Shown here: piece by piece, positions 45,926 to 63,860 of the stretch
Layout of the letters: every line of letters starts with the position of its first letter
How positions within the stretch are numbered: position 1 is the first letter of the stretch
Source: Leucobacter sp. Psy1
GTDB lineage: Bacteria; Actinomycetota; Actinomycetes; Actinomycetales; Microbacteriaceae
Direction: 5' to 3'
Assembly (NCBI RefSeq): GCF_020096995.1
Contig: NZ_CP083692.1
Coordinates: 620,001 to 684,000, forward strand
Length of the DNA stretch: 64,000 bases
Notes under the pieces: model-generated
What the model saw: only the letters and a program-made list of their open reading frames with translations
Told to the model about the DNA's origin: nothing
Database searches by the model: none
Made by a program: the position numbers and the translations under genes

Positions 45926-48469
45926 ATGTTGAAACCCCCTCGGGCTGCCCTCGCGGCCGCCCTCGGCGCCGCGCTGGTGGTCGGCGCCCCATTCGCCGCA
46001 GGCGCTGCGGCAGCACCACTCGAATTGCAGGAAGAGCAGAAGTTCGGCAGCGGCGCAGCGCGCAGCGGTGGACGAGCCATCGATCTCGTCGGTGACCACG
46101 CTGCGGTCACGAACGCCGTGGGCAGCGCGATGGACTTCACGCACCGGACCGAGTCGGGGGTGTGGGAGACGCAGACGGTCGAGGCCCCGCAGGCCGATGC
46201 GCAGTTCGGCGAGGCCGTCGTCTTCGACGACGACGCCGGGCGGGCATTTGTGAGTGCACCGCGTGCGCAGAGCGTGCACGTGTACGAGCGCTCAGGTGAG
46301 AACGACTGGTCGCTACAGCGCACGCTCGTGGCCCCTGCGAAGCCGGATCGGGTCTCCGACTACGGTTCCGACGACCGGAACTTCGCTGAGGCCCTCGACT
46401 TTTCGGACGGCATACTCGCGGTCGGCGTGCCGAACGCCACGGTGGATCGCAAGTCCCACGCCGGGTTCGTTTTCACGGTCGACGTCGACGCGCCGGGGGA
46501 GCCGCAGTGGGTCCCGCACATTCCCGAGCGAGTCATCGGGGACAGCATCACGGGGCAGTCCGTCGCTCTTGACGGCGACCGGCTGGCGGTCAGCGCGATT
46601 CAGAACCGGGAAGACCACGTCGGAGTGCGCGCAGCTCGCGTCGGCGGGCTCTACCTCTGGGACCTCGCGGGCAACACCGAGCCCCGCTTCCGGAGCATGC
46701 CGAAGGAGGACGAGAAAGTGTGCCTGTCGAACGCGGGCTCAGGCGGCACCTTCGGCGTCTCGGTGTCGTTCTTCGGCGAGACGCTGGCGGTCGGGTCGCC
46801 CCACGAGATCACCTACACCGCCGACACCGCGGAAGCGGGCTGCACGGGTGGCGCCGTCGCGCGCGGGGAGACAACGCAGGGCGCCGTCTACTTCTTCGAC
46901 GGCGAGCTAAACCAACTCGGCGGCAAGCTCACCCCGCCGGCGCAGTCGATGAGCTTCGGCTACAGCACCGCCGTTGACGGCTCGACGCTCTACGCGTACT
47001 CGGATCATGCGCCGCGGTACACGGGCGAAGTGCACGCCTACGACCTCGACGCGCTCAGCCTCTCGGGCACCGGAGACGAGAACCGGCGACAGCACGTCGA
47101 TCCCCTGCGCACCTTGACGGCCTCTGACGCGACGCCGAACCAGCTGTTCGGGTACCAGGCGTACGGGCAGGGCCTGCGTGCGGACAGCGGTAGGCTCCTC
47201 GTCGGTTCGACGATGACGGGCGCGGCGTACGCGTTCGCGCCGGCCGCGGCACAGCAGCCGATCGCTCTCGCGATCGCCGAGGTACAGGACTCCGAGATCA
47301 CCCTCGGCGCGTCCGGGGTGGTGCGTGCCCGGGTCACGCCCGGATCCGCGTCGCTCGAGGGTGCGCACGCCATCTTCACCGTCGGAGACACGGGCCTCGC
47401 CCCGGTCCCGATCGAGGGGGATCTGGTCGAGGCGGAGATCGCCGCGAACGCCTTCCCCGAGGGCGAGCACGAGGTCACCGTCAGGCTCGTCAACGCATCG
47501 GGTCAGGAGCTCGCCGCGGAGACGACGCCGGGCATCCTGACGGTGGTGCCGCGACACGAAGGTCCGGAGGGACCGGGTGGCTTCGAGCCGGACACCCAGG
47601 GGGCAGCGCGTGAGGCTCGGGTGGATACGGCAGTCTCCTCGGCATCTTCGGGCACAGCCACCCCAGCGCTGGTGACCGCGTCGCTCCAGAAAGAGAAGTC
47701 GGAGGATCGGTCGGCCACGCTCGGAGAGCCAGGGGGCTTCGAACCGGCACCTCCCGTGAGCGGCATTACGCTTCGAGGTGCCTCGCCCGATGCGCAGAGT
47801 GCTGCCGAGGAGACGCCGATGATCACCGGAACTCTCTGGGGGCACATCGTTGGTAACCCGTTCCAGCTGGATCGGGGATACATTCCGACCGGCACCGTAG
47901 ACATCTACTGGGGAGATCAGCACCTGTGTACGAGTGAGGTGGTCCCCTACGACGAGAAGATGTCGCGTTGGCTGTGCCGCGGCGTATCGCTTCCCGCCGG
48001 TCAGACCGTGACGCTCAAGGTCGTGTGGTCTGGAGACGATAATTACGATCCGAGCGAGAAGTTTCAGGACTTCGTCATCCCGGATCTTCCTGAGCCGGTG
48101 AACCCCGGTACGGAGAACCCGGGAACTGAGAACCCCGGTACGGAGGACCCGGGCACGGAGAACCCTGGTACGGAGAACCCCGGTACGGAAAACCCGGGCA
48201 CCGAGAACCCGGGCACGGAGAACCCGGGCACGGAGAACCCGGGCACGGAGAACCCGGTTGAGCCGAAGCCGACCGAGCCCACGACGCCCGTGGATCCGAC
48301 GGAGAAACCGTCGGAAAAACCGGGAGCGACGAAGGCTGCCGAACCACGGCAGAAGCTCGCCCAAACGGGTGGCGGCGCTCCGCTCGCGCTCGGCGCGGTA
48401 GCGGTGACGGCGTTGCTCGCGGGCGGCTCCATGCTCGTCCTCCGACGCAGAGCGGCTGCGCAGGAGTAA
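45926..48469 (+). CDS. Beta-propeller cell-wall surface protein with NPGTE repeats
   Basis: An 847-aa exported protein. Signal peptide (about 1-34), then seven FG-GAP-like repeats (about 36-450; blades recur as FG-x-S/A...LAVG...GxVYxF), consistent with a seven-bladed propeller. Two Ig-like beta domains follow (about 450-545 and 630-715), each preceded by a GGFEP linker. Then come ten NPGTE repeats (about 726-775), a Pro/Glu/Lys spacer, LAQTGG, a hydrophobic segment and RRR. LAxTG is the motif favoured by class E sortases. Likely an adhesin or a wall-spanning display protein; the ligand is unknown. Confidence 0.82.
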   Translation: MLKPPRAALAAALGAALVVGAPFAAGAAAAPLELQEEQKFGSGAARSGGRAIDLVGDHAAVTNAVGSAMDFTHRTESGVWETQTVEAPQADAQFGEAVVFDDDAGRAFVSAPRAQSVHVYERSGENDWSLQRTLVAPAKPDRVSDYGSDDRNFAEALDFSDGILAVGVPNATVDRKSHAGFVFTVDVDAPGEPQWVPHIPERVIGDSITGQSVALDGDRLAVSAIQNREDHVGVRAARVGGLYLWDLAGNTEPRFRSMPKEDEKVCLSNAGSGGTFGVSVSFFGETLAVGSPHEITYTADTAEAGCTGGAVARGETTQGAVYFFDGELNQLGGKLTPPAQSMSFGYSTAVDGSTLYAYSDHAPRYTGEVHAYDLDALSLSGTGDENRRQHVDPLRTLTASDATPNQLFGYQAYGQGLRADSGRLLVGSTMTGAAYAFAPAAAQQPIALAIAEVQDSEITLGASGVVRARVTPGSASLEGAHAIFTVGDTGLAPVPIEGDLVEAEIAANAFPEGEHEVTVRLVNASGQELAAETTPGILTVVPRHEGPEGPGGFEPDTQGAAREARVDTAVSSASSGTATPALVTASLQKEKSEDRSATLGEPGGFEPAPPVSGITLRGASPDAQSAAEETPMITGTLWGHIVGNPFQLDRGYIPTGTVDIYWGDQHLCTSEVVPYDEKMSRWLCRGVSLPAGQTVTLKVVWSGDDNYDPSEKFQDFVIPDLPEPVNPGTENPGTENPGTEDPGTENPGTENPGTENPGTENPGTENPGTENPGTENPVEPKPTEPTTPVDPTEKPSEKPGATKAAEPRQKLAQTGGGAPLALGAVAVTALLAGGSMLVLRRRAAAQE
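48101..48250 (+). repeat. Ten tandem 15-base units encoding NPGTE
   Basis: Ten in-frame 15-base units; unit four encodes DPGTE. The last three are identical (AACCCGGGCACGGAG), others differ at synonymous sites, so recent slippage or recombination is likely at the 3' end. The number is probably variable between strains and would set the length of the wall spacer. Confidence 0.9.
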
Positions 48470-50226: not shown

Positions 50227-52167
50227 TCAGCGTCCTCCGAGTGTAACGGGGTGCGCTGCCATGCCCGTCGGTTCCCGAGTGGCGGACCGCGCTGCGGTGC
50301 AGAGGAGTTCCCCGGCGAGGTGGTCCGCGCGGCGGAGTGGCAATGCGTTGATGCCCGGGCGGGTGAACGCGCCGGCCTGGATCTCCGACGTGAAGGGGCC
50401 GATGGCGAATCGGCGATCCGAACCGCCGATCCTGCCCTGTTCGACGACGACGGAACCGCTGCCGGGGAGTTCGGCGACCTGGTCGGTCGCCAGAAGTTGC
50501 CGGAGCAGGGGGTTGTCGCTGTCCGTCGCCTGTGCGGCGGGAAGCCAGGCGTCGATCAGGATCCGACTCTGCACGCTCGTCGTGCGCTCCCCCTGATCGG
50601 TGAGGGCCGTTCCCCTCGCGACGAAGACTCCGTGATCCTCCACGGCTTCGAGCCGGAGCTCGCCACCGAGGAAGTGCACGATGCCCGCATCGGAGAGTGC
50701 GATGAGCTCGCGCAGGCGGTCCCCGGGAGGCCCGCTGGCGACGTAGCTGAAGTACGTGTGCCACGCACGGGGGAGGGAGTGGATACGGCTGCGGTCGTTC
50801 CAACGCTCGAGCGGGATATCGCTCACGGCGATGTGGGATCTGAGGAGCGTGAGGAACAGCGCCTGCGTCGCGCTGTGCTCCTGCCGCGTCCGCTGCCTGA
50901 GGTCCTGCTCGATGTGCGCGTGCACCCGCTCATGCACGGACTCGCCAGCGCCCGGTACGGTGAGGGGCCGATCGAACGCCTCGAGCTCAAGTCGGTCGTC
51001 CGGGTGCGGAACCGTGTGCTCGATGAGCTGAATGAGTGCGCGCGACCGGTATCCGTCGTCCTCGGCGAGGATACGGCGGAGGCGGGGCGCGAACCACGAC
51101 CAGTCGGCCGACACGCGTTCCGGGTGGCCGGTGAAGAGTTCGCGGTAGTACCCCGTGAGCATTTCGGAAGCGATGAGCGGCCAGACGTCCCGCTCGAAAT
51201 CGAGCGGGTGCGGTGACCGGAGGAGTCGCTCGCGCCCTTCGGGGTGCAAGTACTCGAGTTCGACGGGATCCCCGACCGGTCGGCTGGTGATCTTCGACCG
51301 GTAGGGTACGCCCCGGCGGGAGCCGAGGTGCAGACGCGGCTCGCGACCACTGGGGTGGTAGCGCAGTGATCCGTCCGCCTGCTCGAGGAAGCGACCGCCC
51401 CTGCCCTCGGTGAGGAGTACGGTCAGGTCGACCGCGGCGAGGCCCATCCCGCGGACGATCACGTCTTCTCCCGCGGCCAGCCAGTCGAGATCGATGTCCG
51501 CGGTGAACGCGGGAGCGACGTACGAGAGACCGTGTCGACCGGCGAAGCTCGCGAGGTGCGTCGACTCGGCCGAGGGGGCCGAGCCGTTGTGCCCGAGCGC
51601 GTAGAGCACGATGTCCGCGTGCAGGGTGCGGCCCGATGCCAGCCGCACGGTCGTCGCCGCGTCGCCGGATACGACGCCGTCGATGGGGTCCGGATCCACC
51701 GCGATCGCGACGTCCTCGTGCCACCGCACCGTCACCTCCGGTCGTGCGCGGCGCGCGGCATCGCGGTAGACCCAGCTGAGGTAGGCGTTCCCGAGCCGAC
51801 GCGTCGGGAATGCGCGGTCGTCCGGGTCGTCGATCTCGGCGTCGAGGATCGCGTCGCTCCAGTCGGGTTTCGCGATCTCGCCCCGACGCACGGCGCTCAC
51901 CCAGTCCGCGAGCGTGGGACCCGGCACCACGGGCCCGTCGATGACGCAGGAGTCGTCCGTGAACATCGTCACGTCCTCCCGCATCGAGTTGAGCTTCAGA
52001 AGTGGCGACTGCGCTCGCCGCCAGATGCGTCCCCCTCCGGGTTCGTGAGGGTCGACGAGGTGGTACTCGACCTCCAGCTCCGGGGTATCGCGAGCGTGGC
52101 GGGCGATGAATCGCTCGAGCACCAGGATCGCCGCGGGTCCGGCCCCGATGCTCACCACCCGGATCAC
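50227..52167 (-). CDS. FAD/NAD(P)-binding oxidoreductase (PF13454-type)
   Basis: A 646-aa flavoprotein. N-terminal dinucleotide fold SIGAGPAAILVLERF (6-20), then GGGRIWRRAQSPLLKLNSM, which is typical of the FAD/NAD(P)-binding group related to N-hydroxylating and S-oxidising monooxygenases, and a second Rossmann part with VRGMGLAAVDL near 240. GTG overlaps the GNAT stop, so the two are translated together. Likely oxidises the product of the acetyltransferase or an imported amino-acid derivative; substrate unproved. Confidence 0.75.
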   Translation of the reverse strand: MIRVVSIGAGPAAILVLERFIARHARDTPELEVEYHLVDPHEPGGGRIWRRAQSPLLKLNSMREDVTMFTDDSCVIDGPVVPGPTLADWVSAVRRGEIAKPDWSDAILDAEIDDPDDRAFPTRRLGNAYLSWVYRDAARRARPEVTVRWHEDVAIAVDPDPIDGVVSGDAATTVRLASGRTLHADIVLYALGHNGSAPSAESTHLASFAGRHGLSYVAPAFTADIDLDWLAAGEDVIVRGMGLAAVDLTVLLTEGRGGRFLEQADGSLRYHPSGREPRLHLGSRRGVPYRSKITSRPVGDPVELEYLHPEGRERLLRSPHPLDFERDVWPLIASEMLTGYYRELFTGHPERVSADWSWFAPRLRRILAEDDGYRSRALIQLIEHTVPHPDDRLELEAFDRPLTVPGAGESVHERVHAHIEQDLRQRTRQEHSATQALFLTLLRSHIAVSDIPLERWNDRSRIHSLPRAWHTYFSYVASGPPGDRLRELIALSDAGIVHFLGGELRLEAVEDHGVFVARGTALTDQGERTTSVQSRILIDAWLPAAQATDSDNPLLRQLLATDQVAELPGSGSVVVEQGRIGGSDRRFAIGPFTSEIQAGAFTRPGINALPLRRADHLAGELLCTAARSATREPTGMAAHPVTLGGR

Positions 52168-52742
52168 GGGGTATCGCCGCCCAGCGGCTTTCCGAAGCCG
52201 TGCACGCCGAAGCCTCGTGAGCCGCGCTGCACGTCGTCCTCCGGCGTGTACAGGTGGGTGTATCCGGCACTCCGGTAGAGCGCGACGGCCTCGGGTTGCC
52301 GCGGGCCGGTCGTCAGGAAGACGTCCGAATAGCCGAGTGCGCGTGCCCGTGCTTCGAGCTCGACGAGCACTCGTTTGCCGAGGCCGCGGCCGCGATGGTC
52401 GGTGCGGGTCCAGATGCGCTTGAATTCGGCGGTGCGGTCGTCGTAGCGCATGAAGGCACCACCCGCGACGACCTGGCCGTCGTCGATGAGCACGACGAAC
52501 GCGCCCACCGGTGCGAGGAAGAGTTCAGCGGGATAGCGGTTCATCTCGGTGGAGGCTGAGTCGCCCCCGACGGTGCCGTAACGGGTGTCGTACTCGCGCT
52601 CGAGGTCGTGGAGGAGCGGTGCTGCGATCGGGTCGCGGGGGTCGACGATGCGGAACTCGCCGCGGGGGAGTGCCACTGAATCCGGCGAGGGGGACCGGGC
52701 CGGCTCCTGCGCGTCCAGGTAACCTTGGGTAATGGCTGACAT
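52164..52742 (-). CDS. GNAT-family N-acetyltransferase
   Basis: A 192-aa acetyltransferase. The acetyl-CoA loop is in TDHRGRGLGKRVLVE (about 130-145), followed by FLTTGPRQPEAVALYRSAGY. Leaderless: TAACCT lies six bases before the ATG. Beside an amino-acid importer and flavin monooxygenases, it may N-acetylate an S-substituted cysteine, as the GNAT member of the Bacillus ytmI operon does (inference). Heads the minus-strand GNAT-flavoprotein operon. Confidence 0.83.
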   Translation of the reverse strand: MSAITQGYLDAQEPARSPSPDSVALPRGEFRIVDPRDPIAAPLLHDLEREYDTRYGTVGGDSASTEMNRYPAELFLAPVGAFVVLIDDGQVVAGGAFMRYDDRTAEFKRIWTRTDHRGRGLGKRVLVELEARARALGYSDVFLTTGPRQPEAVALYRSAGYTHLYTPEDDVQRGSRGFGVHGFGKPLGGDTP

Positions 52743-52759
52743 GACTCCAGGTTATGGAT
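52743..52759 (-). promoter_or_regulatory. Leaderless promoter of the GNAT operon
   Basis: Minus strand: ATCCATAACCT, six bases, then ATGTC. The 11-base part is identical to that before the monooxygenase gene at 59937. TGTCATGC occurs 35 bases before TAACCT (52789-52782). No -35, so an activator is likely. Confidence 0.6.
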
Positions 52760-52866
52760 GATTTGTCCCTGCGGGCGACCTGCATGACAAAGAATGACGG
52801 CAGTATCGCCAGGGTCCCGGGTTACGTTTTCTTGCAGTCGACCTTGCGGGTGTCGGCGGGTTTCCC

Positions 52867-52880
52867 AATAACCTCTCCGT
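52867..52880 (+). promoter_or_regulatory. Leaderless promoter of the amino-acid transporter
   Basis: AATAACCT (52867-52874), six bases, then ATGTC. Same geometry as at 52743 and 59938. TTGCGG (52844-52849) is a -35 at the long spacing of 19. ATGAC occurs twice ten bases apart at 52784 and 52794, a possible activator site shared with the divergent GNAT operon. Confidence 0.55.
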
Positions 52881-53909
52881 ATGTCTCCCATAACCACACC
52901 CAATGCTCCGGCGGTTGATCAGACCCGCGACGCCGCCGCGGCGACCCGCGGCGTGCCGCTGGATGTCGTCCCCCTGAAGCACTGGACGCGCTGGATCATC
53001 AGCGCGATCGCGATCTTCCTGGTCGCCCAGCTCGTCTGGACCTTCTTCACGAATGAGCAGTGGCGCTGGAACATCTTCGCCGAGTACTTCTTCGACCCTG
53101 CGGTACTCCGTGGACTCTGGCTCACCCTGTGGCTCACCGCGGCCTCCGCCATCATCGGGTTCGTGCTCGGGGCGCTGCTCGCGCTCGCGCGGCTCTCAGG
53201 CTCGCCGCTGCTGAGTTCGTTCGCGTGGAGCTTCACCTGGTTCTTCCGCTCGGTTCCACTGATCGTGCAGCTCGTGATCTGGTACAACCTCGGGTATCTG
53301 TTCCCGACTCTCGGACTCGGCTGGCCCTTCACCTACGACTTCTGGATCGTCGAGTTCGATCCCGTCAGGCTCATCTCCTCGACCGTCGCGGCGATCCTCG
53401 GGCTTTCGCTCCACCAGGCGGCCTACTCCGCCGAGATCATCCGCGGCGGCCTGCTCTCAGTCGATCAGGGGCAGCTCGAGGCGGCGAAGGCGCTCGGCAT
53501 TCCGAGAGGGCGTCGGTTCTTCCGCATCGTGCTTCCGCAGGCTGCGCGGGCGATCCTGCCCAACGCCTTCAACGAGGTCATCGGACTCCTGAAGGGAACG
53601 TCTGTGGCGTTCATCGTCGCGCTGCCCGAACTCTTCTACACCGTCCAGGTGATCTACAACCGCAACAGCCAGGTGATCCCGCTGCTGCTCGTCGCCGCGG
53701 TCTGGTACACGATCTTCACGACGATCCTGAGTATCGGTCAGTACTACCTCGAGCGCTACTACGCTCGCGGCACGGCCCGCGAACTGCCCCCGACTCCGCT
53801 GCAGCGTGCCCGTCGAGCGATCGGCCGACTGCGCGGCAGCCGAGACACCCCACCGACCGCGCAGACTCCGGAGTCCGTCATCGCGGCGCTGAACGCCGAA
53901 CAGCGCTGA
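52881..53909 (+). CDS. Polar amino-acid ABC transporter permease
   Basis: A 342-aa HisM-type permease with about five to six membrane segments (for example 40-60, 78-100, 115-135) and the EAA loop QLEAAKALGIPRGRRFFRIVLP near 195-216. A single permease serving with one ATPase suggests a homodimer. Together with two cysteine-locus neighbours, cystine or another sulfur amino acid is the favoured cargo, but the sequence alone only supports a polar amino acid. Confidence 0.87.
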   Translation: MSPITTPNAPAVDQTRDAAAATRGVPLDVVPLKHWTRWIISAIAIFLVAQLVWTFFTNEQWRWNIFAEYFFDPAVLRGLWLTLWLTAASAIIGFVLGALLALARLSGSPLLSSFAWSFTWFFRSVPLIVQLVIWYNLGYLFPTLGLGWPFTYDFWIVEFDPVRLISSTVAAILGLSLHQAAYSAEIIRGGLLSVDQGQLEAAKALGIPRGRRFFRIVLPQAARAILPNAFNEVIGLLKGTSVAFIVALPELFYTVQVIYNRNSQVIPLLLVAAVWYTIFTTILSIGQYYLERYYARGTARELPPTPLQRARRAIGRLRGSRDTPPTAQTPESVIAALNAEQR

Positions 53910-53943
53910 TCCCATCTGCTCACCCCGTCCCCAGGAGAACGCC

Positions 53944-54765
53944 ATGACCACCACCGCTCCGCCCCAGGCGCCCCGGAAGACCATCCCGCCCGTCACCGAG
54001 AAGACCGCTGGACTCGTCGAGATCAGCGGGGTGCACAAGTCCTACGGCGCCCACGAAGTGCTCCACGACATCTCGCTCACCGTGCAACCGGGCGAGGTCG
54101 TCGCGCTGCTCGGCCGGTCGGGTTCGGGCAAGTCCACCCTGCTGCGCGCCATCAATCATCTCGAGACCATCGATGCCGGGTCCATCACGATCGACGGCGA
54201 CCACATCGGATACGAGCGTCGCGGCGAACGGCTCTACGAACTCCGCGAGAAGGACGTGCTGCAGCGGCGCACTCGCGTCGGCATGGTGTTCCAGAACTTC
54301 AACCTCTTCCCGCACCTCACGGCGCTCGAGAACATCGTCGAGGCGCCACTGGCGCTGAAGCGCGCGACCAAGGCGGAAGCCGAAGCGCAGGCGCGGACCC
54401 TGCTGGCCCGAGTCGGACTCTCTGACCGTGCCGGTCACTACCCGCGGCAGCTGTCCGGTGGACAGCAGCAGCGCGTCGCGATCGCCCGCGCGCTCGCACT
54501 GGAACCCGATGTTCTGCTGTTCGACGAGCCCACTTCGGCGCTCGACCCCGAACTGGTGGGCGAGGTGCTGAGCGTCATCAAGGATCTCGCACACAGCGGC
54601 CGCACGCTCATCATCGTCACCCACGAGGTCGGCTTCGCTGCCGAGGTCTCAGACCACGTCGTCTTCCTCGACGCCGGCCGCATCATCGAGCAGGGCACCC
54701 CCGATCGCGTCCTGCGCGCGCCGGAACAGGCCCGTACCCAAGAATTCCTCGACTGGGTCATCTGA
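53944..54765 (+). CDS. Amino-acid ABC transporter ATP-binding protein
   Basis: A 273-aa ATPase of the GlnQ/TcyN group. Walker A GRSGSGKSTLL, Q loop VFQNFNLFPH, signature LSGGQQQR, Walker B VLLFDEPTSALDP, and His switch IIVTHEVGF. CAGGAGAA precedes the ATG, 34 bases after the permease. Confidence 0.92.
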   Translation: MTTTAPPQAPRKTIPPVTEKTAGLVEISGVHKSYGAHEVLHDISLTVQPGEVVALLGRSGSGKSTLLRAINHLETIDAGSITIDGDHIGYERRGERLYELREKDVLQRRTRVGMVFQNFNLFPHLTALENIVEAPLALKRATKAEAEAQARTLLARVGLSDRAGHYPRQLSGGQQQRVAIARALALEPDVLLFDEPTSALDPELVGEVLSVIKDLAHSGRTLIIVTHEVGFAAEVSDHVVFLDAGRIIEQGTPDRVLRAPEQARTQEFLDWVI

Positions 54766-54802
54766 CCCGACACCCTCCTCACATAGACAGGACCGATCAC
54801 CC

Positions 54803-55816
54803 ATGCACACTCCCACTCGCACGTCCGGACCCCGGGCGTCGCGACTCATCGTCGCCTCGCTCGCAGCACTCGCGATCGTCGGCCTCACCGCCTGCAGCTC
54901 GGCCTCGAGCGCGACACCCGGCGAGACCTCCGAGCCCGCCGCGAACGAGTCCCCGTTCGATCTGACCTCGGCGAACGTCGAGGACCGCGTGCGCATCGAT
55001 CCGGTGCCCGAAGCGGTGGAGGCGCTCGAGGAGAGTGGTTTCGCCCCGGTCCAGGACGGGAAGCTCACCGTCGCCCACTCGGCTTACGAGCCGCCGCTCG
55101 GATTCCTCGCCGAAGATGACAACCGCACGCTGCTCGGCGTCGAACCCGACATCGCGCAGCTCGTCGCTGACGGACTCGGCCTCGAGTACGCCCCCGAGAA
55201 CGTCGCCTGGGCCGACTGGCCGCTCGGCGTGGAATCGGGCAAGTACGACGCCGTCGTCTCGAACGTCACCGTGACCGAGGAGCGGAAAGACATCTTCGAC
55301 TTCGCCGTGCACCGCAACGACGTCATCGCGTTCGCCGTGCAGGCCGACAGCGAGATCGACGCGATCGACGGGCCCGAGGACGTCGCCGGTCTGAAGGTTG
55401 CCGTGGGCAGTGGAACCAACCAGGAGAAGATCCTGCTCGACTGGTTCGCCGAGAATGAGAAGAACGGCCTCGAGCCCGGCGAGCCCGTCTACTTCGAGGA
55501 CAACGCCGCAGCAAATCTCGCGCTCGCCTCAGGCCGGATCGATGCGACCTTCGGCCCGAACCCCACGGCGGCCTACCGGGTCGCGACGACGGGAGAGTCG
55601 AAGATCGTCGGCTCCCTCAACGGCGGGTTCCCCGAGAACGCGCAGATCGGCGTCACGACGGCGAAGGGCAACGGACTCGTCGACCCCGTCGCCATCGTGT
55701 TGAACCATGCCATCGAGAGCGGCGACTACGCGAAGGTCCTCGAACGCTGGGAGCTGGAGGACGAGAGCGTCGACGAGGCCCTCGTGAACCCGCCGGGCCG
55801 GCCGCGCGAAGACTGA
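54803..55816 (+). CDS. Amino-acid ABC transporter binding lipoprotein 1
   Basis: A 337-aa lipoprotein (lipobox LTAC, Cys31) of the family 3 solute-binding type. DIAQLVADGLGLE, WPLGVESGKYDAVVSNVTVTEER and AVGSGTNQEK are characteristic. It is longer than the family norm because of a 60-residue N-terminal linker shared with protein 2. The paralogue next door points to two related ligands. Confidence 0.88.
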   Translation: MHTPTRTSGPRASRLIVASLAALAIVGLTACSSASSATPGETSEPAANESPFDLTSANVEDRVRIDPVPEAVEALEESGFAPVQDGKLTVAHSAYEPPLGFLAEDDNRTLLGVEPDIAQLVADGLGLEYAPENVAWADWPLGVESGKYDAVVSNVTVTEERKDIFDFAVHRNDVIAFAVQADSEIDAIDGPEDVAGLKVAVGSGTNQEKILLDWFAENEKNGLEPGEPVYFEDNAAANLALASGRIDATFGPNPTAAYRVATTGESKIVGSLNGGFPENAQIGVTTAKGNGLVDPVAIVLNHAIESGDYAKVLERWELEDESVDEALVNPPGRPRED

Positions 55817-55827
55817 CCGGAACCATC

Positions 55828-55865
55828 GGGAGGGTCCTCGTCCACGCACGGACGAGGACCCTCCC
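55828..55865 (+). terminator. Hairpin between the two binding-protein genes
   Basis: A perfect 16-bp stem (55828-55843 with 55850-55865) and a six-base loop. It lies 12 bases after the first binding-protein stop and before an AGGAGA site for the second. Likely a strong terminator or mRNA-end stabiliser, allowing the first binding protein to be made in excess. Confidence 0.7.
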
Positions 55866-55892
55866 TGCCGCACCCACACCAGGAGACCACCC

Positions 55893-56912
55893 ATGGCCCA
55901 GACCTCACTGCTCACCTCGCGCTCGTCGCGCACCCGCCGCCTGGCGGCCCTCAGCGCCGGGATCGGGGCGCTCTCGCTCGTTCTCACCGGATGCGGATCC
56001 GCTGCGACGGGTCCCGGCGCCCCGACGACCGAATCGGCGGGCGAGTCGCCGTTCGACCTCTCCACGGCGAATCTTGACGGACGCCCCCACATCGAACCCG
56101 TTCCGGAGGCCGTGGAAGCTCTCGAGGAGAGCGGCTTCACCCCGACGCAGGAGGGGCAGTTGACCGTCGCGCACAACGGGGCGGGGGAGCCGCCCATCTC
56201 GTTCTTCGCCGAGGACGACAACCGGACGATCCTCGGGAGCGACGCCGATATGGCCTCCCTCGTGGCGGAGGGCCTCGGACTCGAGTACGCGCCGCAGAAC
56301 GTCGCCTGGGCCGACTGGCCGCTCGGAGTCGAGTCGGGGAAGTACGACCTCGTGCTCTCGAACGTCGGGGTCACGGAGGAGCGCAAGGAGATCTTCGACT
56401 TCGCGACGTATCGCGATGCCGTGATGGGCTTCGTCGTGGCGGCCGACAGCGAGATCGAGGCCGTCGACGAGGCCGCCGATATCTCAGGGCTCCGCGTGAT
56501 CGTCGGGAGCGGCACGAACCAGGAGCAGTACCTGCTCGACTGGATCGCCGAGAACGAGGAGGCCGGCATCGACCCGGGAGAACCCGTCTACTACGAGGAC
56601 AGCGCCGCAGGACTTCTGGCGTTGAAGTCGGGGCGTGCGGACGCGTTCATCATGCCGTACCCGCAGGCCGCGTTCCAGACCGAGCTGCTCGGTGAGACGA
56701 AGGTCGTCGGCAAGTTCAACAGCGCCTACCCCGTCGACGGGCAGGTCGGCGTCGCGACGGCGAAGGGGAACGGTCTCGCCGAACCCGTGTCGATCGTGAT
56801 CGACCACCTCATCGAGACCGGCGTGTACGACGAGGTGCTCGCGCGCTGGGGCGAAGAAGAGGAAGCGGTGTCGGAATCGCTGATCAATCCGCCCGGCCTC
56901 CCGAAGCCGTAA
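55893..56912 (+). CDS. Amino-acid ABC transporter binding lipoprotein 2
   Basis: A 339-aa lipoprotein (lipobox LTGC, Cys34), clearly a tandem paralogue of protein 1: both share the ESPFDL start of the mature part, PVPEAVEALEESGF, AWADWPLGVESGKYD and the final NPPG. Binding-site stretches differ (for example AHNGAGEPPISF against AHSAYEPPLGF), so ligand preference may differ. CAGGAGA before the ATG. Confidence 0.88.
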   Translation: MAQTSLLTSRSSRTRRLAALSAGIGALSLVLTGCGSAATGPGAPTTESAGESPFDLSTANLDGRPHIEPVPEAVEALEESGFTPTQEGQLTVAHNGAGEPPISFFAEDDNRTILGSDADMASLVAEGLGLEYAPQNVAWADWPLGVESGKYDLVLSNVGVTEERKEIFDFATYRDAVMGFVVAADSEIEAVDEAADISGLRVIVGSGTNQEQYLLDWIAENEEAGIDPGEPVYYEDSAAGLLALKSGRADAFIMPYPQAAFQTELLGETKVVGKFNSAYPVDGQVGVATAKGNGLAEPVSIVIDHLIETGVYDEVLARWGEEEEAVSESLINPPGLPKP

Positions 56913-56962
56913 CCGACGATGCGGTCGCCGCGTTCGAGGTGTGGTCGGGGTCCGACCGGCTG

Positions 56963-57028
56963 CACATCGGTTCGCGCAGTGCACATCCGATAGCGCACTT
57001 TTCGATGTGCACGGCGCGAACCGATGTG
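56963..57028. repeat. Long 25-bp hairpin downstream of the transporter
   Basis: Arms 56963-56987 and 57004-57028 pair at 24 of 25 positions around a 16-base loop. Size and a CCGA(A)TAGCG motif near the apex are shared with the hairpin at 30398-30462. It may end the transporter message; it may also be one copy of a dispersed hairpin element. Confidence 0.6.
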
Positions 57029-57112
57029 TTCCTCGTGGTGAACCGATCGCGGACCGAGCATGGCGCACCGGCGCTTTGGTGAGGCCCCGCGGAAAACCCA
57101 TAGATCTGAGGG

Positions 57113-57359
57113 GTGCACAATCCCATCCGAACGGCGACGCTCGAAGACATCCCCGGAGCAGCTGCGACACTGGCTGAGGCCTTCGACGACTATCCGTGGA
57201 CGCGCTGGAGCCTCTCGGCTGCAGATTACTCGGTTCGGCTTCGCGGTCGCTCACCGCACGCAGATCGTCGACGGGCCGATGGTCACCACCATGGGCGTCG
57301 AGCTCGAGTTCGGGATCACGCGCGAGGCGGACGAGTCGCCCGCCCCGCGCGCCCGCTAG
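57113..57359 (+). pseudogene. Remnant of a GNAT acetyltransferase gene
   Basis: From GTG 57113 about 40 codons read as a GNAT N-terminus (IRTATLEDIPGAAATLAEAF, then DDYPWTRWS). From about 57228 a different frame reads as a GNAT C-terminus (FGFAVAHRTQIVDGPMVTTM) to the TAG at 57357. The middle, including the acetyl-CoA site, is missing, so an internal deletion joined the two ends and shifted the frame. It lies beside a locus whose intact GNAT gene is at 52164, so it may be the lost second enzyme. Confidence 0.7.
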
Positions 57360-58744
57360 GCGACCGCGAGGTCGAGCGATGCCGGCGGTTGGGGTGCCGG
57401 CAGCCCCAGGACCGAGCGCAGGGTCGGTCGCGGGTTCGCGGGTGACTCGTATGCCGTCCGATACACGCCGCGCTCCTGCAGAATCGGAACGACGCGATCG
57501 ACGAAGACGTCGAGACCCGTCGGAACGAGGTGCGGCACGAGTACGAAGCCGTCCGAGGCGCGTCCCTGCACGTATCGGTTGATCTCATCCGCGACCGTCT
57601 CCGCAGAGCCGACGAACGTGTGCTGGGCCGTCTCGGCGATCACCACTTCGCGTGCCGACAGACCCTCGGCTTCTGCGCGCTCGCGCAGGCGGGCGGCGTG
57701 CGCGCGGCGGTCGATCGCCGTGGATGTCTGCCCCTGGCGGAGCACCGTCTCTTCGGGCTCGTCCGCCGGCAGCGGGCCGTCGAGATCGATGTCGGAGAGG
57801 TCTCTGCCCCAGATCGCTTCCAGCCACGCGAGCGCCGTCTGCGGGCTGATCTGGGCGTGCGCCACCTCGCGGGAGAGGTCACGGGCCTCGGCGTCCGTGT
57901 CGCCGACGATGAACGTCGCACCCGGCATGATGAGCAGTGAGTCGCTGCTCCGTCCCGCTGCGGCGAGCCGCTCCTGCACGTCGGCATAGAACGCGCGTCC
58001 CTCTGCGTACTCGCTGTGCCGGGTGAAGATCACCTCTGCGTTCGCCGCCGCGAAGTCCCGCCCGGCCGGCGAGTCCCCGGCCTGCACGATCACCGGGTAC
58101 CCCTGCGGGCTTCGGGGCACCGTCGGGGTCGTATCGACGGCGAAGTGCTTGCCCTGATGCGCGACCCGCGCGATCCGATCCGGGTCGGCGAATCTCCCGC
58201 GCCTGGCGTCCGCGACGAGCGCGTCGTCCGCCCAGGAATCCCAGAGATGCTTCGCGACCCGCACGAACTCCTCGGCCCGTTCGTAGCGCTCCGGGTAGGG
58301 AAGGTATCCGCCTCGCCGGAAGTTGCCGCCGTGGAACGCGTCCGATGAGGTGACGACGTTCCACCCCACGCGTCCGCCGGAGAGATGGTCGATCGAGGCG
58401 AGCTGCCTGGCGAGTTCGACGGGCTCGTTGAAGGTACTGCTCAGCGTGCCGACGACGCCGATGCGCTCGGTCACCGCCGCCATCGCCGTGATGATGGCGA
58501 GTGTCGCCGGTCGGCCGGCCACGTCGAGGTCGTGGATCTTCCCGGCGTGCTCCCGCACGCGCAGTCCCTCGGCGAGGAAGACGTAGTCGAACAGCCCGCG
58601 TTCCGCCGTTTGCGCGAAGTGCCGGAACGATGCGAAGTCGATCTGACTGCCCGCGGCGGGGTCACTCCACACTGTCGTGCTGTTCACGCCGGGGAAGTGG
58701 GCGACGAGATGGATCTGGCGCTGCGCGCCGTCTGCTGCGGTCAT
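57356..58744 (-). CDS. FMN-dependent monooxygenase, NtaA/SnaA/DszA family
   Basis: A 462-aa two-component monooxygenase needing reduced FMN. FPGVNSTTVWSDPAAGSQIDF at the N-terminus, VGTLSSTFNEP, the segment GRVGWNVVTS and PQGYPVIVQAGDS are family hallmarks. This family includes nitrilotriacetate and sulfur-compound monooxygenases and Bacillus YtnJ/CmoJ, which acts in cysteine salvage. ATGA overlap with the monooxygenase gene before it. The flavin reductase is divergent at 60004. Confidence 0.87.
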   Translation of the reverse strand: MTAADGAQRQIHLVAHFPGVNSTTVWSDPAAGSQIDFASFRHFAQTAERGLFDYVFLAEGLRVREHAGKIHDLDVAGRPATLAIITAMAAVTERIGVVGTLSSTFNEPVELARQLASIDHLSGGRVGWNVVTSSDAFHGGNFRRGGYLPYPERYERAEEFVRVAKHLWDSWADDALVADARRGRFADPDRIARVAHQGKHFAVDTTPTVPRSPQGYPVIVQAGDSPAGRDFAAANAEVIFTRHSEYAEGRAFYADVQERLAAAGRSSDSLLIMPGATFIVGDTDAEARDLSREVAHAQISPQTALAWLEAIWGRDLSDIDLDGPLPADEPEETVLRQGQTSTAIDRRAHAARLRERAEAEGLSAREVVIAETAQHTFVGSAETVADEINRYVQGRASDGFVLVPHLVPTGLDVFVDRVVPILQERGVYRTAYESPANPRPTLRSVLGLPAPQPPASLDLAVA

Positions 58745-59937
58745 GCGTTGACCTCCTGAGAGTCGCGGGTCTGAACGTCCTGATCATCGCCTGCGCTGGG
58801 CTCCGATGCCGCGGCGAACCGGTGGGGTGCCGCGGCGAGACCGAGCCGCTGGCGGAGCGTGCGAGCGGGAGTTTCGACTCCTGACCTGGGAGCCGAAGCG
58901 GTGAGTCCGCGATGCCGCAGCTCGGGCAGCAGTGCCTCCGCGACCCACTCGAGGTCGCGGGGCAGCCGGGCGGGGCGAAGACGCACCCCGTCGGCCCCGG
59001 CGCGCTGGGCAGCGGCCACCTGATCCGCGAGTTCCGCCGGCCCTCGGGAGACGCCACGCTCCCCGCCGACCTCGAAGTCGACGACGATCCGCAACGGTTC
59101 GAGACCGCGCTCCTCGCGTGGGGCGGCAGCGGCAGCGGCATGGACCGCGCCGATGCGCTCGAGCGATGAGGCGAGCGTGTCCGCGGGCGGAATGAAGACG
59201 ACATCGGCGACTCGGATCGCGAGTGCCTCGGTCTCGGCGGTCTCAGCGAGGAGGGTGACCGGCAGCTGGCCCTGGGGCGAACGCGGCACGATCGACGGGC
59301 CGGCGATCGAGAAGAGGTCGCCGACGAAATTGACGTGGTGCAACCGGTCCCGGTCGAGGAATCGTCCGGTGGAGGTATCGCGGATCACCGCGTCATCCTC
59401 CCAGCTGTCCCAGAGTGCGCGCGCCACCTCCGCGACGTCCTCCGCTTCCCCGAGGAGCGCCTCCGGGGTCAGCGTCTCGGCTGATCGTCGCCCGAAGGCC
59501 GCCGCATCGGCGGGCGCCGGGGAGATGCGGAGCTGCCATCCGGCCCGGCCCAGGCTCACATGATCGAGCGTCTGCAGTGCCGTGGCGACGTGGAAGGGCT
59601 CGGTGTGGGTGACGGTGACGACCGGCACGACCCCGATCTGGTCGGTACGTGCGGCGACGGCCGTGAGCGTGAGGAGTGCATCGAGCCTGCCCTGCAGTGA
59701 GTCTGATCGAGCCGGATCGCCGACCTCGGAGGCACCCTGCAGGTGGAGGTCGTCCTCGAGGGTGACGTAGTCGATGCCCGCGAGTTCCGCGGTGCGGACG
59801 AGATCGGTCCAGTAGTCGGCGGTGAAGACCGCTGCGGGATCGGGGAGTTCGCGCCATGCGTCCGGGTCCCAACCCGCTCCGTCGAGCGCGACGCCGACCG
59901 TTAATACGGCGTCATGAAGTTTCGCAATATCTGACAT
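58741..59937 (-). CDS. LLM-class flavin monooxygenase
   Basis: A 398-aa luciferase-like monooxygenase, distantly related to the one downstream (VTHTEPFHVATALQTLDHVSLGRAGW; IVPRSPQGQLPV). It is shorter and lacks part of the C-terminal insertion. The ATG at 59937 (MSDIAK) is chosen over 59943 because TAACCT then lies exactly six bases upstream, as in the two other genes with this promoter. The pair resembles YtmO plus YtnJ. Confidence 0.78.
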   Translation of the reverse strand: MSDIAKLHDAVLTVGVALDGAGWDPDAWRELPDPAAVFTADYWTDLVRTAELAGIDYVTLEDDLHLQGASEVGDPARSDSLQGRLDALLTLTAVAARTDQIGVVPVVTVTHTEPFHVATALQTLDHVSLGRAGWQLRISPAPADAAAFGRRSAETLTPEALLGEAEDVAEVARALWDSWEDDAVIRDTSTGRFLDRDRLHHVNFVGDLFSIAGPSIVPRSPQGQLPVTLLAETAETEALAIRVADVVFIPPADTLASSLERIGAVHAAAAAAPREERGLEPLRIVVDFEVGGERGVSRGPAELADQVAAAQRAGADGVRLRPARLPRDLEWVAEALLPELRHRGLTASAPRSGVETPARTLRQRLGLAAAPHRFAAASEPSAGDDQDVQTRDSQEVNA

Positions 59938-59954
59938 GCCCATAGGTTATGGAT
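59938..59954 (-). promoter_or_regulatory. Leaderless promoter of the monooxygenase operon
   Basis: Minus strand: ATCCATAACCT, six bases, ATGTC. TGTCATGC lies 45 bases before TAACCT (59994-59987), one helical turn further than in the GNAT promoter. No -35 is recognisable. The possible ATG at 59943 would fall inside the spacer. Confidence 0.6.
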
Positions 59955-60003
59955 ATGGCCCGCAGCAGCGCGAGGTCTGTGACGCAGCATGACAGGAGCT
60001 TCC

Positions 60004-60534
60004 ATGGGATTCACGCAGTCCGCCCTCGCCGCGCAGCCGGGGGTCTTCGACCCGCGCGAGTACCGGGACGTGATGGGTGCGTTCCCGTCGGGCGTGACTG
60101 TCGTCGCGACCCACGGCCCCGACGGTCCGGTCGGGTTCACCTGCCAGTCCTTTGCGAGCGTTTCGCTTGACCCGCCCCTCGTGTCCATCTCGGTCACCCG
60201 GACGTCGCGCAGCATCTCGGCGGTTCGCGGGCACGGGCGCGTGGTCGTCAACGTGCTCAGCGCCGATCAGCGCCACCTGAGTGCGCAGTTCGCGCGATCC
60301 GGCACCGACAAGTGGGCGGGGGTCTCATGGGAACCAGACGAGACCAACGGGGCGCCCCGCCTCCACGGCGTCACCAGCTGGGTGGCCGGCGAGATCGAGC
60401 GGGAGATCGAAGCGGGGGACCACGTCATCTTCCTCATCCGCGTCACCGGCATCGGCGCGCACGCCGACCGAGAACCGCTCGTGTTCCTCCGCAGCGTCTA
60501 CCGGGAGCTCACAGGAGGTGACCGCCTCCCGTGA
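60004..60534 (+). CDS. Flavin reductase for two-component monooxygenases
   Basis: A 176-aa FMN reductase-like protein supplying reduced flavin to the monooxygenases. FPSGVTVVATHGPDG and GFTCQSFASVSLDPPLVSISV are family motifs. ATG at 60004 has CAGGAG six bases upstream and is preferred to ATG 59989. Diverges from the monooxygenase operon, and its end overlaps the convergent manC by 26 bases. Confidence 0.88.
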   Translation: MGFTQSALAAQPGVFDPREYRDVMGAFPSGVTVVATHGPDGPVGFTCQSFASVSLDPPLVSISVTRTSRSISAVRGHGRVVVNVLSADQRHLSAQFARSGTDKWAGVSWEPDETNGAPRLHGVTSWVAGEIEREIEAGDHVIFLIRVTGIGAHADREPLVFLRSVYRELTGGDRLP

Positions 60535-61691: not shown

Positions 61692-63227
61692 TTACACGTT
61701 GACGGGCGTCTCCTCTGGAACGGTGCGCTTGCTGCGCACCCGGGCGAGGACCCGGTTGCTGACGGCGAAGACGAGCACCAGGGCGAGCAGGCCGTAGAGC
61801 ACCAGCGTGATCGGCCCCTGGAAGAGCACGCTGAAGTCCCCGTTCGCGCTCATCGCCGCGTCGCGGAGGCTCGTCTCGGCGAGCGGCCCGAGGACCATGC
61901 CGATGATGAGCGGTGCGAGGGGGAAGTCGACGGCACGCATGAGGAATCCGAGCAGGCCGATTCCGAGGAGGAGGAGCAAGTCGAACACCGACCCCGATGA
62001 CGCGTAGATGCCGAGCGCGCAGAACATCGTGATGCCCGCGTACAGGTACGGCCGGGGGATGAGCAGCAGCTTCGCCCACAGCATCGCGAACGGGAGGTTC
62101 AGGATGAGGAGGATGACCATCGCGATGAAGAAGCTCGCGAGCAGAGCCCAGACGAGGTCGGGGGAGCGCTCGAAGAGCAGCGGACCCGGCTGGAGGCCGT
62201 ACTGACGGAACGCGGCCAGCATGATCGCAGCCGTTGCCGAGATCGGCAGACCCAGTGCGAGCAGCGCGCCCATCGCCATACCGGTCGTCGAGTTGCCGGC
62301 TGCCTCGGGAGCGGCGAGACCGCGGATCGCGCCCTTGCCGAACATCGGCTTCTTCCGTCGTCCGTCGAGCTTCTTCTCGAGTCCGTACGCGAGGAAGGTC
62401 GGGATCTCGGATCCGCCGGCGGGAACCACGCCGAAGGGGAGGCCGATCGCCGTGCCGCGCGCCCAGGCCGGAGCCGCCTCACGGATTTCCTTCCGGGAAA
62501 GCCACGGACGGCCGGTCGGCTTGATCATATTGCCGCCCTTGACGTGCCTTTCGAGGCAGGCCACGTATATGACCTCTCCCAGTGCGAGGATCGCGACCGT
62601 CACCGTGACGAGCGAGATGCCATCGAACAGGAAGGGCGAGTCGAGCGTGAATCGCGGTGCGCCCGAAACGCCGTCGACGCCGACGACCGCGATGCCGAGG
62701 CCGATGAACAGCGAGGCGAGTCCCTTCACCGCATTGTCGGTGACCACGGACGATGTTGCGGCGAAGGCGAATACCGCGAGGGCGAAGAACTCGGCCGGTC
62801 CGAATCTCGTCGAGAAGTCGGCGAGGAGCGGAGCCATGAAGACCACCACGATCGAGGCGATGAAGCCGCCGATGAACGCGCCGATGGCCGCCGTCGCGAG
62901 GGCTTGCGCCGCCCGCCCGTTCAACGCCATCTTGTGGCCCTCGAACGTCGACGCGATCGCCGAGGCTTGGCCAGGGGTGTTCATCAGAATGCCCATGGTC
63001 GAATCGCCGAACAACCCGCCGAAGTACACGCCCGCGAACATGATGAACGCCGCCGTCGGCTCGAGCGCGAAGGTGACGGGGAGGAGGAGGGCGACGGCCA
63101 TCGACGACCCGAGGCCGGGCATGACGCCGACAGCGGTGCCGAGCAGACAGCCGATCACGACCCACATGAGGTTTTCGAGTGTCAGTGCGCCGGCGAAACC
63201 GTCGGCGAGCAGCTGCAGAGTTTCCAT
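61692..63227 (-). CDS. tctA: Tripartite tricarboxylate transporter large membrane subunit
   Basis: A 511-aa TctA-type permease with about 11-12 membrane segments. The N-terminal GVMPGLGSSMAVALLLP and central FGVVPAGGSEIPTFLAYG are conserved gating loops; NTPGQASAIASTFEGH is also typical. It starts three bases after tctB. Substrate (citrate-like or another carboxylate) cannot be told. Confidence 0.92.
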   Translation of the reverse strand: METLQLLADGFAGALTLENLMWVVIGCLLGTAVGVMPGLGSSMAVALLLPVTFALEPTAAFIMFAGVYFGGLFGDSTMGILMNTPGQASAIASTFEGHKMALNGRAAQALATAAIGAFIGGFIASIVVVFMAPLLADFSTRFGPAEFFALAVFAFAATSSVVTDNAVKGLASLFIGLGIAVVGVDGVSGAPRFTLDSPFLFDGISLVTVTVAILALGEVIYVACLERHVKGGNMIKPTGRPWLSRKEIREAAPAWARGTAIGLPFGVVPAGGSEIPTFLAYGLEKKLDGRRKKPMFGKGAIRGLAAPEAAGNSTTGMAMGALLALGLPISATAAIMLAAFRQYGLQPGPLLFERSPDLVWALLASFFIAMVILLILNLPFAMLWAKLLLIPRPYLYAGITMFCALGIYASSGSVFDLLLLLGIGLLGFLMRAVDFPLAPLIIGMVLGPLAETSLRDAAMSANGDFSVLFQGPITLVLYGLLALVLVFAVSNRVLARVRSKRTVPEETPVNV

Positions 63228-63230
63228 GGG

Positions 63231-63860
63231 TCAGAACCCCCAACCGAGCAGCCCCGAGGGCAACGAGAGCCCGAGGAGCATGTCAAACAAGATGTACGAG
63301 ATCGAACTCGCGGTGAGGCCCACGATGAGGCTTTGCACGAAGCGCTTCTCGCCGAAGCCGCGGGCGACGCACCAGAAGAGGAAAGCCGCGCCGATGATCC
63401 AGCCGAGGAAGGTCAGCAGGAGGGCGAAGCCCAGGAAGCCGCCGACCACCCAGGCGAGCGAGGCCGGATCGAGCCCTACGCGACGCTTGGGGGCGCCGGT
63501 GCCGAGATGCACTTCATCTTCCTCGACCGCGGGGAGCACAATGGCGCCGGTGCGGATCGCGGTGACGGTCTGCATCTTCTGCTTCACCGCACTGATGATG
63601 AGCAGCACGGCGAACAGGGTGAGCCCGCCCGCGATGATCGACGGGAAGAACTCCGGTCCCGGGAAGTCGGTACCCTCGGGGATCGCCATCGTGACGATCC
63701 CGTAGAAGAGGTAGCCGGCGAACGCCAGCAGCACGACCGGCATGATGAGGTTCTTCAGCAGCTCAAGCGTGCCGTTGTCACCCGGGCCGATCTCGATCTC
63801 CTCGCCGAGCGTCGCCGAGAGCGATGTCGGGTTGTTGGAGGCCATGTCAGAGAACGTCAC
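63231..63860 (-). CDS. tctB: Tripartite tricarboxylate transporter small membrane subunit
   Basis: A 209-aa TctB-type protein with four membrane segments (about 35-56, 72-91, 133-152, 158-205 in two passes). FPGPEFFPSIIAGGL is the usual signature. GTG at 63860 overlaps the tctC stop and has GAGGAG upstream; ATG 63845 lacks a site. Confidence 0.85.
   Translation of the reverse strand: MTFSDMASNNPTSLSATLGEEIEIGPGDNGTLELLKNLIMPVVLLAFAGYLFYGIVTMAIPEGTDFPGPEFFPSIIAGGLTLFAVLLIISAVKQKMQTVTAIRTGAIVLPAVEEDEVHLGTGAPKRRVGLDPASLAWVVGGFLGFALLLTFLGWIIGAAFLFWCVARGFGEKRFVQSLIVGLTASSISYILFDMLLGLSLPSGLLGWGF

Follow-up and report, generated by a model that had tools for sequence, protein, structure and literature searches.

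A candidate salvage locus for S-substituted cysteines in Leucobacter sp. Psy1, with an FzmM-like flavoprotein beside a CmoJ-like monooxygenase

Which compound is processed by a cluster of nine genes in Leucobacter sp. Psy1, a soil-type actinobacterium, in which an ABC importer and a GNAT acetyltransferase stand beside two luciferase-like monooxygenases (LLM1 and LLM2), a flavin reductase and a PF13454 flavoprotein? The cluster occupies positions 50227-60534 of the analyzed stretch of 64,000 nucleotides (hereafter the window; C1:620001-684000) of a single-contig 3.25-Mb genome. Sulfur salvage by this locus appears well supported by homology, because LLM1 is 42% identical (171/407 aligned residues) to YtnJ, which we take to be CmoJ, the C-S-cleaving enzyme of S-alkylcysteine salvage. 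With a probability of about one half, we propose that the locus is an actinobacterial salvage operon for S-substituted cysteines, i.e., thioether amino acids, in which the flavoprotein would act as S-oxygenase and LLM1-LLM2 would cleave the C-S bond.

A CmoJ-like monooxygenase and its alternating neighbours

Among solved structures, LLM1 matches YtnJ/MoxC best (290 bits), ahead of 3sdo (annotated as nitrilotriacetate (NTA) monooxygenase, 265 bits), DszA (248 bits), DmoA (199 bits) and the ethylenediaminetetraacetate (EDTA) monooxygenase 5dqp (182 bits). The second of these scores, and the placement of LLM1 in the NtaA/DmoA family, could also point to breakdown of aminopolycarboxylates or N-alkyl amino acids of the NTA/EDTA type, with LLM1 and LLM2 cleaving C-N bonds; DAO/sarcosine-oxidase-like genes in 11 flavoprotein loci and oligopeptide-type binding proteins in 9 agree with such a function. 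We consider it improbable, given that LLM1 scores 290 bits with YtnJ as compared to 182 bits with EDTA monooxygenase and that TcyN is the nearest match of the importer ATPase; moreover, we know of no role for a GNAT in NTA/EDTA breakdown.

LLM2 and LLM1 share 36% identity over 219 residues. LLM2 adjoins LLM1 on the same strand in 67 of 73 LLM1 loci, lies about 1.1 kb away in four and is absent from two; this adjacency count was used for LLM2, as the 100-bit threshold can be reached by an LLM1 copy (102-108 bits). An MsnO8 gene stands between the two in L309 and L322. LLM2 is the more variable partner, with 46-53% identity between the window and other Leucobacter (excluding L. tardus) as compared to 68-74% for LLM1. 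A similar pairing of a conserved FMN-binding LLM with a variable, fast-evolving one is found in the crystallised heterodimer NtfO1-NtfO2 (7e36; PMC8027225), which, however, acts in polyketide biosynthesis. The NtfO1/NtfO2 chains match LLM1 and LLM2 in our sequence search of solved structures. We infer a single monooxygenase made up of LLM1 and LLM2 as its two subunits, and not a CmoO-CmoJ pair.

Among 20 LLM1 loci that lack the flavoprotein, a recurrent neighbour is an LLM of the MsnO8 family (TIGR03558, cut-off 167 bits); the three such proteins scanned scored 341, 300 and 300 bits. These 20 loci are a sample from the upper part of the match list, one per genome and with flavoprotein-locus places excluded, and no census. 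Presence was counted by tblastn; the open reading frame (ORF) caller missed LLM1 in four of the 20 (L312, L314, L317, L321). When the 73 LLM1 loci are taken whole, four hold both enzymes, 48 only the flavoprotein, 16 only the MsnO8-family LLM and five neither. One majority vote per genus, which reduces but does not remove the effect of relatedness, gives 2/16/8/2 in the same order (p 5e-4); in genus g130, some species show one state and some the other. The midpoint of a locus was the flavoprotein where this is present and LLM1 elsewhere, which is corrected for by equal flanks around LLM1. Within 4 kb (39 loci with such a flank), none has both, 17 have only the flavoprotein, 16 only MsnO8 and six neither (p 2e-6), and the alternation holds within 6 kb (33 loci, 0/14/16/3, p 1e-6) and 2.5 kb (62 loci, 0/17/17/28, p 0.003), where the 28 loci with neither reflect that most Leucobacter flavoprotein genes are too far off to count.

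CmoO is described as the sulfoxidase that acts before CmoJ, together with the chemistry of both (PMC10863075), and has been named as UniProt O34846 (PMC11354265). With CmoO taken as a member of the MsnO8 family, the simplest reading of the alternation is that flavoprotein and MsnO8-family LLM do the same job. A preliminary description of this DNA, made from the letters alone, had suggested that the flavoprotein may catalyse a new step. This is borne out in part; the flavoprotein more likely replaces CmoO, performing the known sulfoxidation with an unrelated FzmM/SidA fold, than adds a step.

An FzmM-like flavoprotein with an altered pocket

No NCBIfam model matches the window flavoprotein. Among solved structures it has a single relative by sequence, the FzmM-type L-aspartate N-hydroxylase of Streptomyces sp. 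V2 (8cp2/8cp5), matched over the full length (8cp2: phmmer 4e-61, profile 2e-141). An AlphaFold2 model (pLDDT 91.9) has the fold of a class B N-hydroxylating monooxygenase (NMO) with a large helical substrate domain and retrieves 8cp2 at Foldseek rank 1 (TM 0.79/0.85), followed by lysine/ornithine hydroxylases and flavin-containing monooxygenases at 10-14% identity. We mapped the residues named in the excerpts of PMC10404684 by alignment onto 30 members of the flavoprotein family. The equivalents of Asn62 and Arg577 are present in 30/30 each, and the Arg266 position is Lys in all 30. None of the 30 keeps Arg409/Arg412/Asn413/Arg416 of the aspartate site or Arg276 (positions 276 and 416 align to gaps). 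Arg13 is kept in 19/30 and replaced by Ala in 11, among them the 10 rows from Leucobacter, and Arg597 is kept in 4/30, the window protein not among them. The loss of the aspartate site in all 30 and the change of Arg13 to Ala in Leucobacter argue that the substrate differs from aspartate. By its modelled fold, the flavoprotein is a class B heteroatom monooxygenase with a predicted different substrate pocket. In comparison with FzmM/CreE (8cp2, 8cp5), full-length homology, fold and the equivalents of the catalytic Asn and Arg577 are shared, whereas the substrate-binding Arg cluster is missing and the neighbours are transporter and LLM genes instead of a nitrosuccinate-pathway lyase. What is new here is a PF13454 flavoprotein that is, judged by alignment, a full-length FzmM homologue lacking the aspartate-binding arginine cluster.

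In L088, flavoprotein and GNAT are fused (PF13454 and PF00583 in one frame), which fits consecutive steps of acetylation and then oxidation. S-oxygenation by the flavoprotein is proposed because of its alternation with MsnO8-family LLMs and its overlap and fusion with the GNAT. Tentatively, the flavoprotein may represent a new branch of class B enzymes, a non-LLM sulfoxidase of cysteine thioethers that works with a GNAT and has displaced CmoO in many Actinomycetes. In a bolder version of the same tentative proposal, N-oxygenation of the free alpha-amine would activate the conjugate, which would then release its thiol with no need for pyridoxal phosphate (PLP). To our knowledge, C-S cleavage by such PLP-free thiol expulsion has not been described. 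The open-licence papers, to which our literature search was confined, yielded no printed description of the flavoprotein in sulfur salvage, and for Klebsiella KPN_01858 their available excerpts give no function.

Salvage of organosulfur might, however, involve the flavoprotein as a true N-oxygenase that hydroxylates an imported cysteine conjugate, or a product, at its amino nitrogen, with the GNAT acylating the hydroxylamine or a competing amine and S-oxidation left to LLM2 or a distant MsnO8 protein. The pairing of an NMO with a GNAT is the classic hydroxamate combination. The full-length solved relative is an N-hydroxylase, its relative PcxL is an oxime-forming N-oxygenase (PMC10404684), and an MsnO8 LLM is present in the genome. 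We regard this alternative as unlikely: the aspartate-site residues and Arg13 have changed as described above, N-hydroxylation offers no evident route to sulfur release via a CmoJ-type LLM, and the alternation with MsnO8 LLMs would be left unexplained.

Several observations weigh against sulfoxidation by the flavoprotein in a pathway of cysteine salvage. FzmM-type enzymes named in the excerpts of PMC10404684 oxidise nitrogen and not sulfur, and Arg593, a substrate-entrance residue in these enzymes, is still Arg in 22/30 family members (Gly in the window). Four of the 52 loci with LLM1 and flavoprotein also have an MsnO8-like match, two of them weak (139 and 152 bits), and five of 73 loci have neither enzyme, although one of these (L182) is cut before the flavoprotein. 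The Leucobacter genome itself encodes one MsnO8-family LLM above the cut-off (C1:713076), 29 kb past the window and isolated, as the partner genes searched for are all absent from the surrounding 9 kb or so; a sulfoxidase may therefore exist anyway. The placement of CmoO/YtmO in the MsnO8 family is itself our assumption. The oligopeptide-type binding proteins and DAO-family oxidases mentioned above fit other substrates, and the cluster contains neither a deacetylase nor a regulator. Genes retrieved by BLAST as "SfnB" in four loci had seemed to be sulfur neighbours; the one scanned (L322) scores like an ordinary acyl-CoA dehydrogenase, and this support is withdrawn.

Homologues elsewhere add varied contexts. 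Of 61 records of plasmid-borne flavoprotein homologues, the three inspected all lie in other surroundings: one from Streptomyces stands beside lyase-type and glutamine-synthetase genes, which fits an N-hydroxylase pathway, and those from Parageobacillus and Arthrobacter are uninformative. One relative (L100) has a PLP enzyme of Cys/Met metabolism downstream of the flavoprotein gene, which favours a role in sulfur salvage. In L091:8949-11585, a flavoprotein orthologue is fused in one open frame to an F420-dependent NADP oxidoreductase-like domain (PF03807).

Conserved gene set, layout and shared promoter box

The nine-gene set is real and conserved. We compared 56 loci of flavoprotein orthologues with 14 loci of paralogues about 30-36% identical (L123-L136, including C1:1509029 of the same genome), after leaving out one partial record (L076, 32%) and three duplicates (L077, L086, L092). 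Each of the 19 Leucobacter loci contains GNAT, permease, binding protein and LLM1. The ATPase exceeds the threshold in 18 of them, and 13 have the flavin reductase, some stretches ending before it. At least one of permease, LLM1 and GNAT accompanies the flavoprotein in 32 of the 37 other loci (33 from Microbacteriaceae and four from three other families; misses L090, L103, L104, L106, L114), as opposed to 0/14 paralogue loci. Another 20 loci, of which 19 belong to other orders and 12 to the single genus g130, include LLM1, importer, GNAT or LLM3 in 14 cases, with misses in L265-L268, L276 and L277.

The ORF list and profile scans agree with the gene families of the preliminary description: all nine frames are open, in place and of the families first read. 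The features, in window coordinates, are:

50227-52167, minus strand: flavoprotein, FAD/NADPH monooxygenase, predicted FzmM fold (PF13454, 106.5 bits)
52164-52742, minus strand: GNAT N-acetyltransferase (PF00583, 55 bits)
52732-52756, minus strand: GNAT promoter/start box (MATAASYT-N6-ATG.., 0 mismatches)
52784-52798, minus strand: GNAT upstream element GTCATTCTTTGTCAT (tandem GTCAY, 10-bp spacing)
52867-52891, plus strand: permease promoter/start box (0 mismatches)
52881-53909, plus strand: ABC permease, cystine-type (PF00528; NF011680 131 bits, below cut-off 300)
53944-54765, plus strand: ABC ATPase, TcyN-like (best NCBIfam model L-cystine TcyN NF008428, 314 bits, below cut-off 406)
54803-55816, plus strand: substrate-binding protein 1 (SBP1), family 3 (PF00497)
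55893-56912, plus strand: substrate-binding protein 2 (SBP2), family 3 (PF00497; 60% identical to SBP1)
57113-57355, plus strand: decayed GNAT-like remnant (65% over 43 aa, E 4e-6; counterpart ORF in L. tardus, L063:4622-5200)
57356-58744, minus strand: LLM1, NtaA/DmoA-family FMN monooxygenase, YtnJ/CmoJ-like (TIGR03860 432 bits, above cut-off 280)
58741-59943, minus strand: LLM2, divergent LLM1 partner (TIGR03860 199 bits, below cut-off)
59927-59951, minus strand: LLM2 promoter/start box (1 mismatch)
59979-59993, minus strand: LLM2 upstream element GTCATGCTGCGTCAC (distance to the box longer by roughly one helical turn than for GNAT)
59989-60534, plus strand: flavin reductase (PF01613, 137 bits; likely start 60004)

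Strand and spacing suggest the grouping into transcription units: a divergent region of 138 bp separates GNAT-flavoprotein, read leftward, from permease-ATPase-SBP1-SBP2, read rightward, and LLM2-LLM1 is again read leftward, with the flavin reductase diverging from it. Overlaps of 4 bp between GNAT and flavoprotein and between LLM2 and LLM1 suggest translational coupling. As the ATG at 59989 falls within the conserved upstream element, position 60004 is the probable start of the flavin reductase. The nearest named relatives at the locus are Leucobacter species, with 78% identity of the flavoprotein to that of L. tardus (L063), which shares the split arrangement of the window. This arrangement is probably derived, because the order LLM2-LLM1-GNAT-permease-ATPase-SBP(-SBP)-flavoprotein on one strand holds in 16/19 Leucobacter loci (exceptions L063, L079, L083). 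The GNAT-like remnant sits between SBP2 and LLM1, where L. tardus has a longer ORF. No Rfam family matched at the gathering threshold in 49-62 kb, and a repeat search of 146 bp of the divergent region found none.

A promoter shared within the cluster, as previously proposed, was recovered. A 25-base box spanning the start codon has three matches with at most two mismatches in the whole genome, all in the cluster (GNAT, permease, LLM2), as compared to none for the reversed pattern. Its layout in relatives, from 21 aligned sites, is GCGTAAYGGTCATTNTTCGTCAY, about 25-30 free bases, CATAAGCT, exactly six bases and ATGTCTYCCATAA. Across 54 Leucobacter genomes, a pattern search allowing one mismatch yielded 32 matches spread over 24 genomes, as compared to 3 for the reversed pattern, and a sequence-only model of the 21 sites found 27 places at E 1e-7 or better, among which the sites used for building match by construction. 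All but one of these 27 precede cluster genes, mostly LLM2 (places in G032, G310 and the Psy1 genome were assigned by coordinates); the other precedes an isolated binding-protein paralogue in G005.

The box's downstream bases are retained before different proteins (LLM2, GNAT, permease, binding protein), most of which begin MS-I, and in G004 the box is retained while the ATG is lost; the constraint therefore seems to act on DNA or mRNA and not on the peptide. The cluster units would be expressed together from this shared promoter. The six-base distance from box to ATG suggests leaderless transcripts, and the promoter is probably leaderless. Leaderless transcripts are described for ssuR and sulfonate-use genes of Corynebacterium glutamicum (PMC2580772).

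A few boxes lie outside the cluster. In G005 (L151:1501-2621), the isolated extra binding-protein copy has the same promoter, with a 7-codon open frame between box and gene. A one-mismatch box starts a thioredoxin-DUF4395 gene pair in G018 (L171; L176:9036-10135), and in G265 (L174:5492-9335) a LysR gene begins with one, near a sulfurtransferase and a weakly SfnB-like flavoprotein (93 bits, cut-off 431); both weak matches are confined to a single genome each. This LysR (L172/L174) was considered as regulator and rejected, the Psy1 genome having only distant LysR proteins (best 33%). Elsewhere in the window, 45926-48469 reads by eye as a gene for a protein that has a GTENP/GTEDP repeat stretch and a C-terminal LPXTG-like anchor (LAQTG), and 61692-63860, directly past the cluster, as genes of a tripartite tricarboxylate (TctA/TctB) transporter.

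Relation to known systems and proposed pathway

The preliminary description had called the locus an actinobacterial counterpart of the Bacillus ytmI operon. This stands insofar as the locus appears to work like ytmI/cmo: LLM1 is closest to YtnJ/MoxC as a CmoJ/YtnJ-family C-S monooxygenase, a GNAT is present at family level (PF00583), a flavin reductase is encoded, linkage is conserved, and a cystine-type ABC importer comes with family-3 binding proteins (NCBIfam cystine models matched below cut-offs; YtmK 2o1m, E 3e-4). The proposed order of acetylation, oxidation and cleavage is likewise shared. Membership in ytmI/cmo proper fails, because a CmoO-type LLM, an M20 deacetylase and a LysR gene are lacking from the cluster. 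None of six TIGR03558 matches in the genome lies in the cluster (LLM2 is TIGR03860-like), nor does any of nine M20 places, which agrees with the absence of a deacetylase noted earlier. A YtlI-like LysR activator was found neither in the window at E 1e-6, with the L174 gene as one query, nor by eye in the ORF list. An FzmM-fold flavoprotein takes the place of the CmoO-type LLM, PF13454 has no match in the B. subtilis control genome, LLM1 has the near-constant partner LLM2, and the locus has its own promoter box. There is one permease gene, whereas Bacillus presumably has two (TcyL/TcyM).

Two points of the preliminary description need correction. The "extra" PF13454 flavoprotein and the FAD/NAD(P) oxidoreductase are one protein counted twice, as the interval contains a single such gene. 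Two paralogous binding proteins do not set the locus apart: YtmK is a binding protein by the name of structure 2o1m, and we take TcyJ to be the second one of Bacillus. Excerpts of PMC9239247 give TcyJKLMN for B. subtilis and describe Listeria as lacking tcyJ.

The yxe (scm) operon for S-(2-succino)cysteine shares the logic of acetylation, cleavage and deacetylation, an ABC importer and an FMN monooxygenase (PMC9706529, PMC12757645), as opposed to the extra flavoprotein and LLM2 of Leucobacter. Neither YxeP (M20) nor YxeQ is among the nine cluster proteins, the scan for YxeQ being limited to these. The ssu/seu genes for sulfonates and sulfonate esters in C. glutamicum are likewise actinobacterial sulfur-source genes with an FMNH2-dependent monooxygenase, and are regulated by McbR/SsuR (PMC2580772).

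In the proposed salvage of S-substituted cysteines, the compound would be taken up by the two binding proteins and the TcyN-type importer, as their families suggest, and its amino group would be acetylated by the GNAT, as in ytm/yxe. The FAD/NADPH flavoprotein with its changed pocket would then oxidise the sulfur to the sulfoxide, the task of CmoO in Bacillus. The homology of LLM1 to CmoJ is evident; the CmoJ-like C-S cleavage would be performed by an FMN-dependent LLM1-LLM2 heterodimer, with FMNH2 from the flavin reductase. An M20 deacetylase and thiol reduction encoded elsewhere in the genome would complete the release of cysteine. Candidate substrates are cysteines with S-alkyl or S-(2-succino) substituents, or other conjugates of cysteine.

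The same importer would suit an uptake operon for cystine or cysteine whose oxidative genes serve detoxification, e.g., of mercapturates from mycothiol-dependent detoxification, and actinobacteria make mercapturic acids from mycothiol conjugates. This is, in our view, the least probable explanation, as an importer argues for scavenging from outside and a profile scan of the nine proteins of the cluster revealed none for efflux.

Salvage of S-substituted cysteines as outlined here gives a widespread PF13454 flavoprotein family a concrete proposed role and would link a fosfazinomycin-type N-hydroxylase fold to sulfur recovery. It suggests that the S-alkylcysteine pathway has been rebuilt in actinobacteria around another oxygenase and a C-S monooxygenase of two subunits. 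Should this be correct, it would help to predict the routes by which actinobacteria in soil regain sulfur from alkylation products and from conjugates of cysteine.

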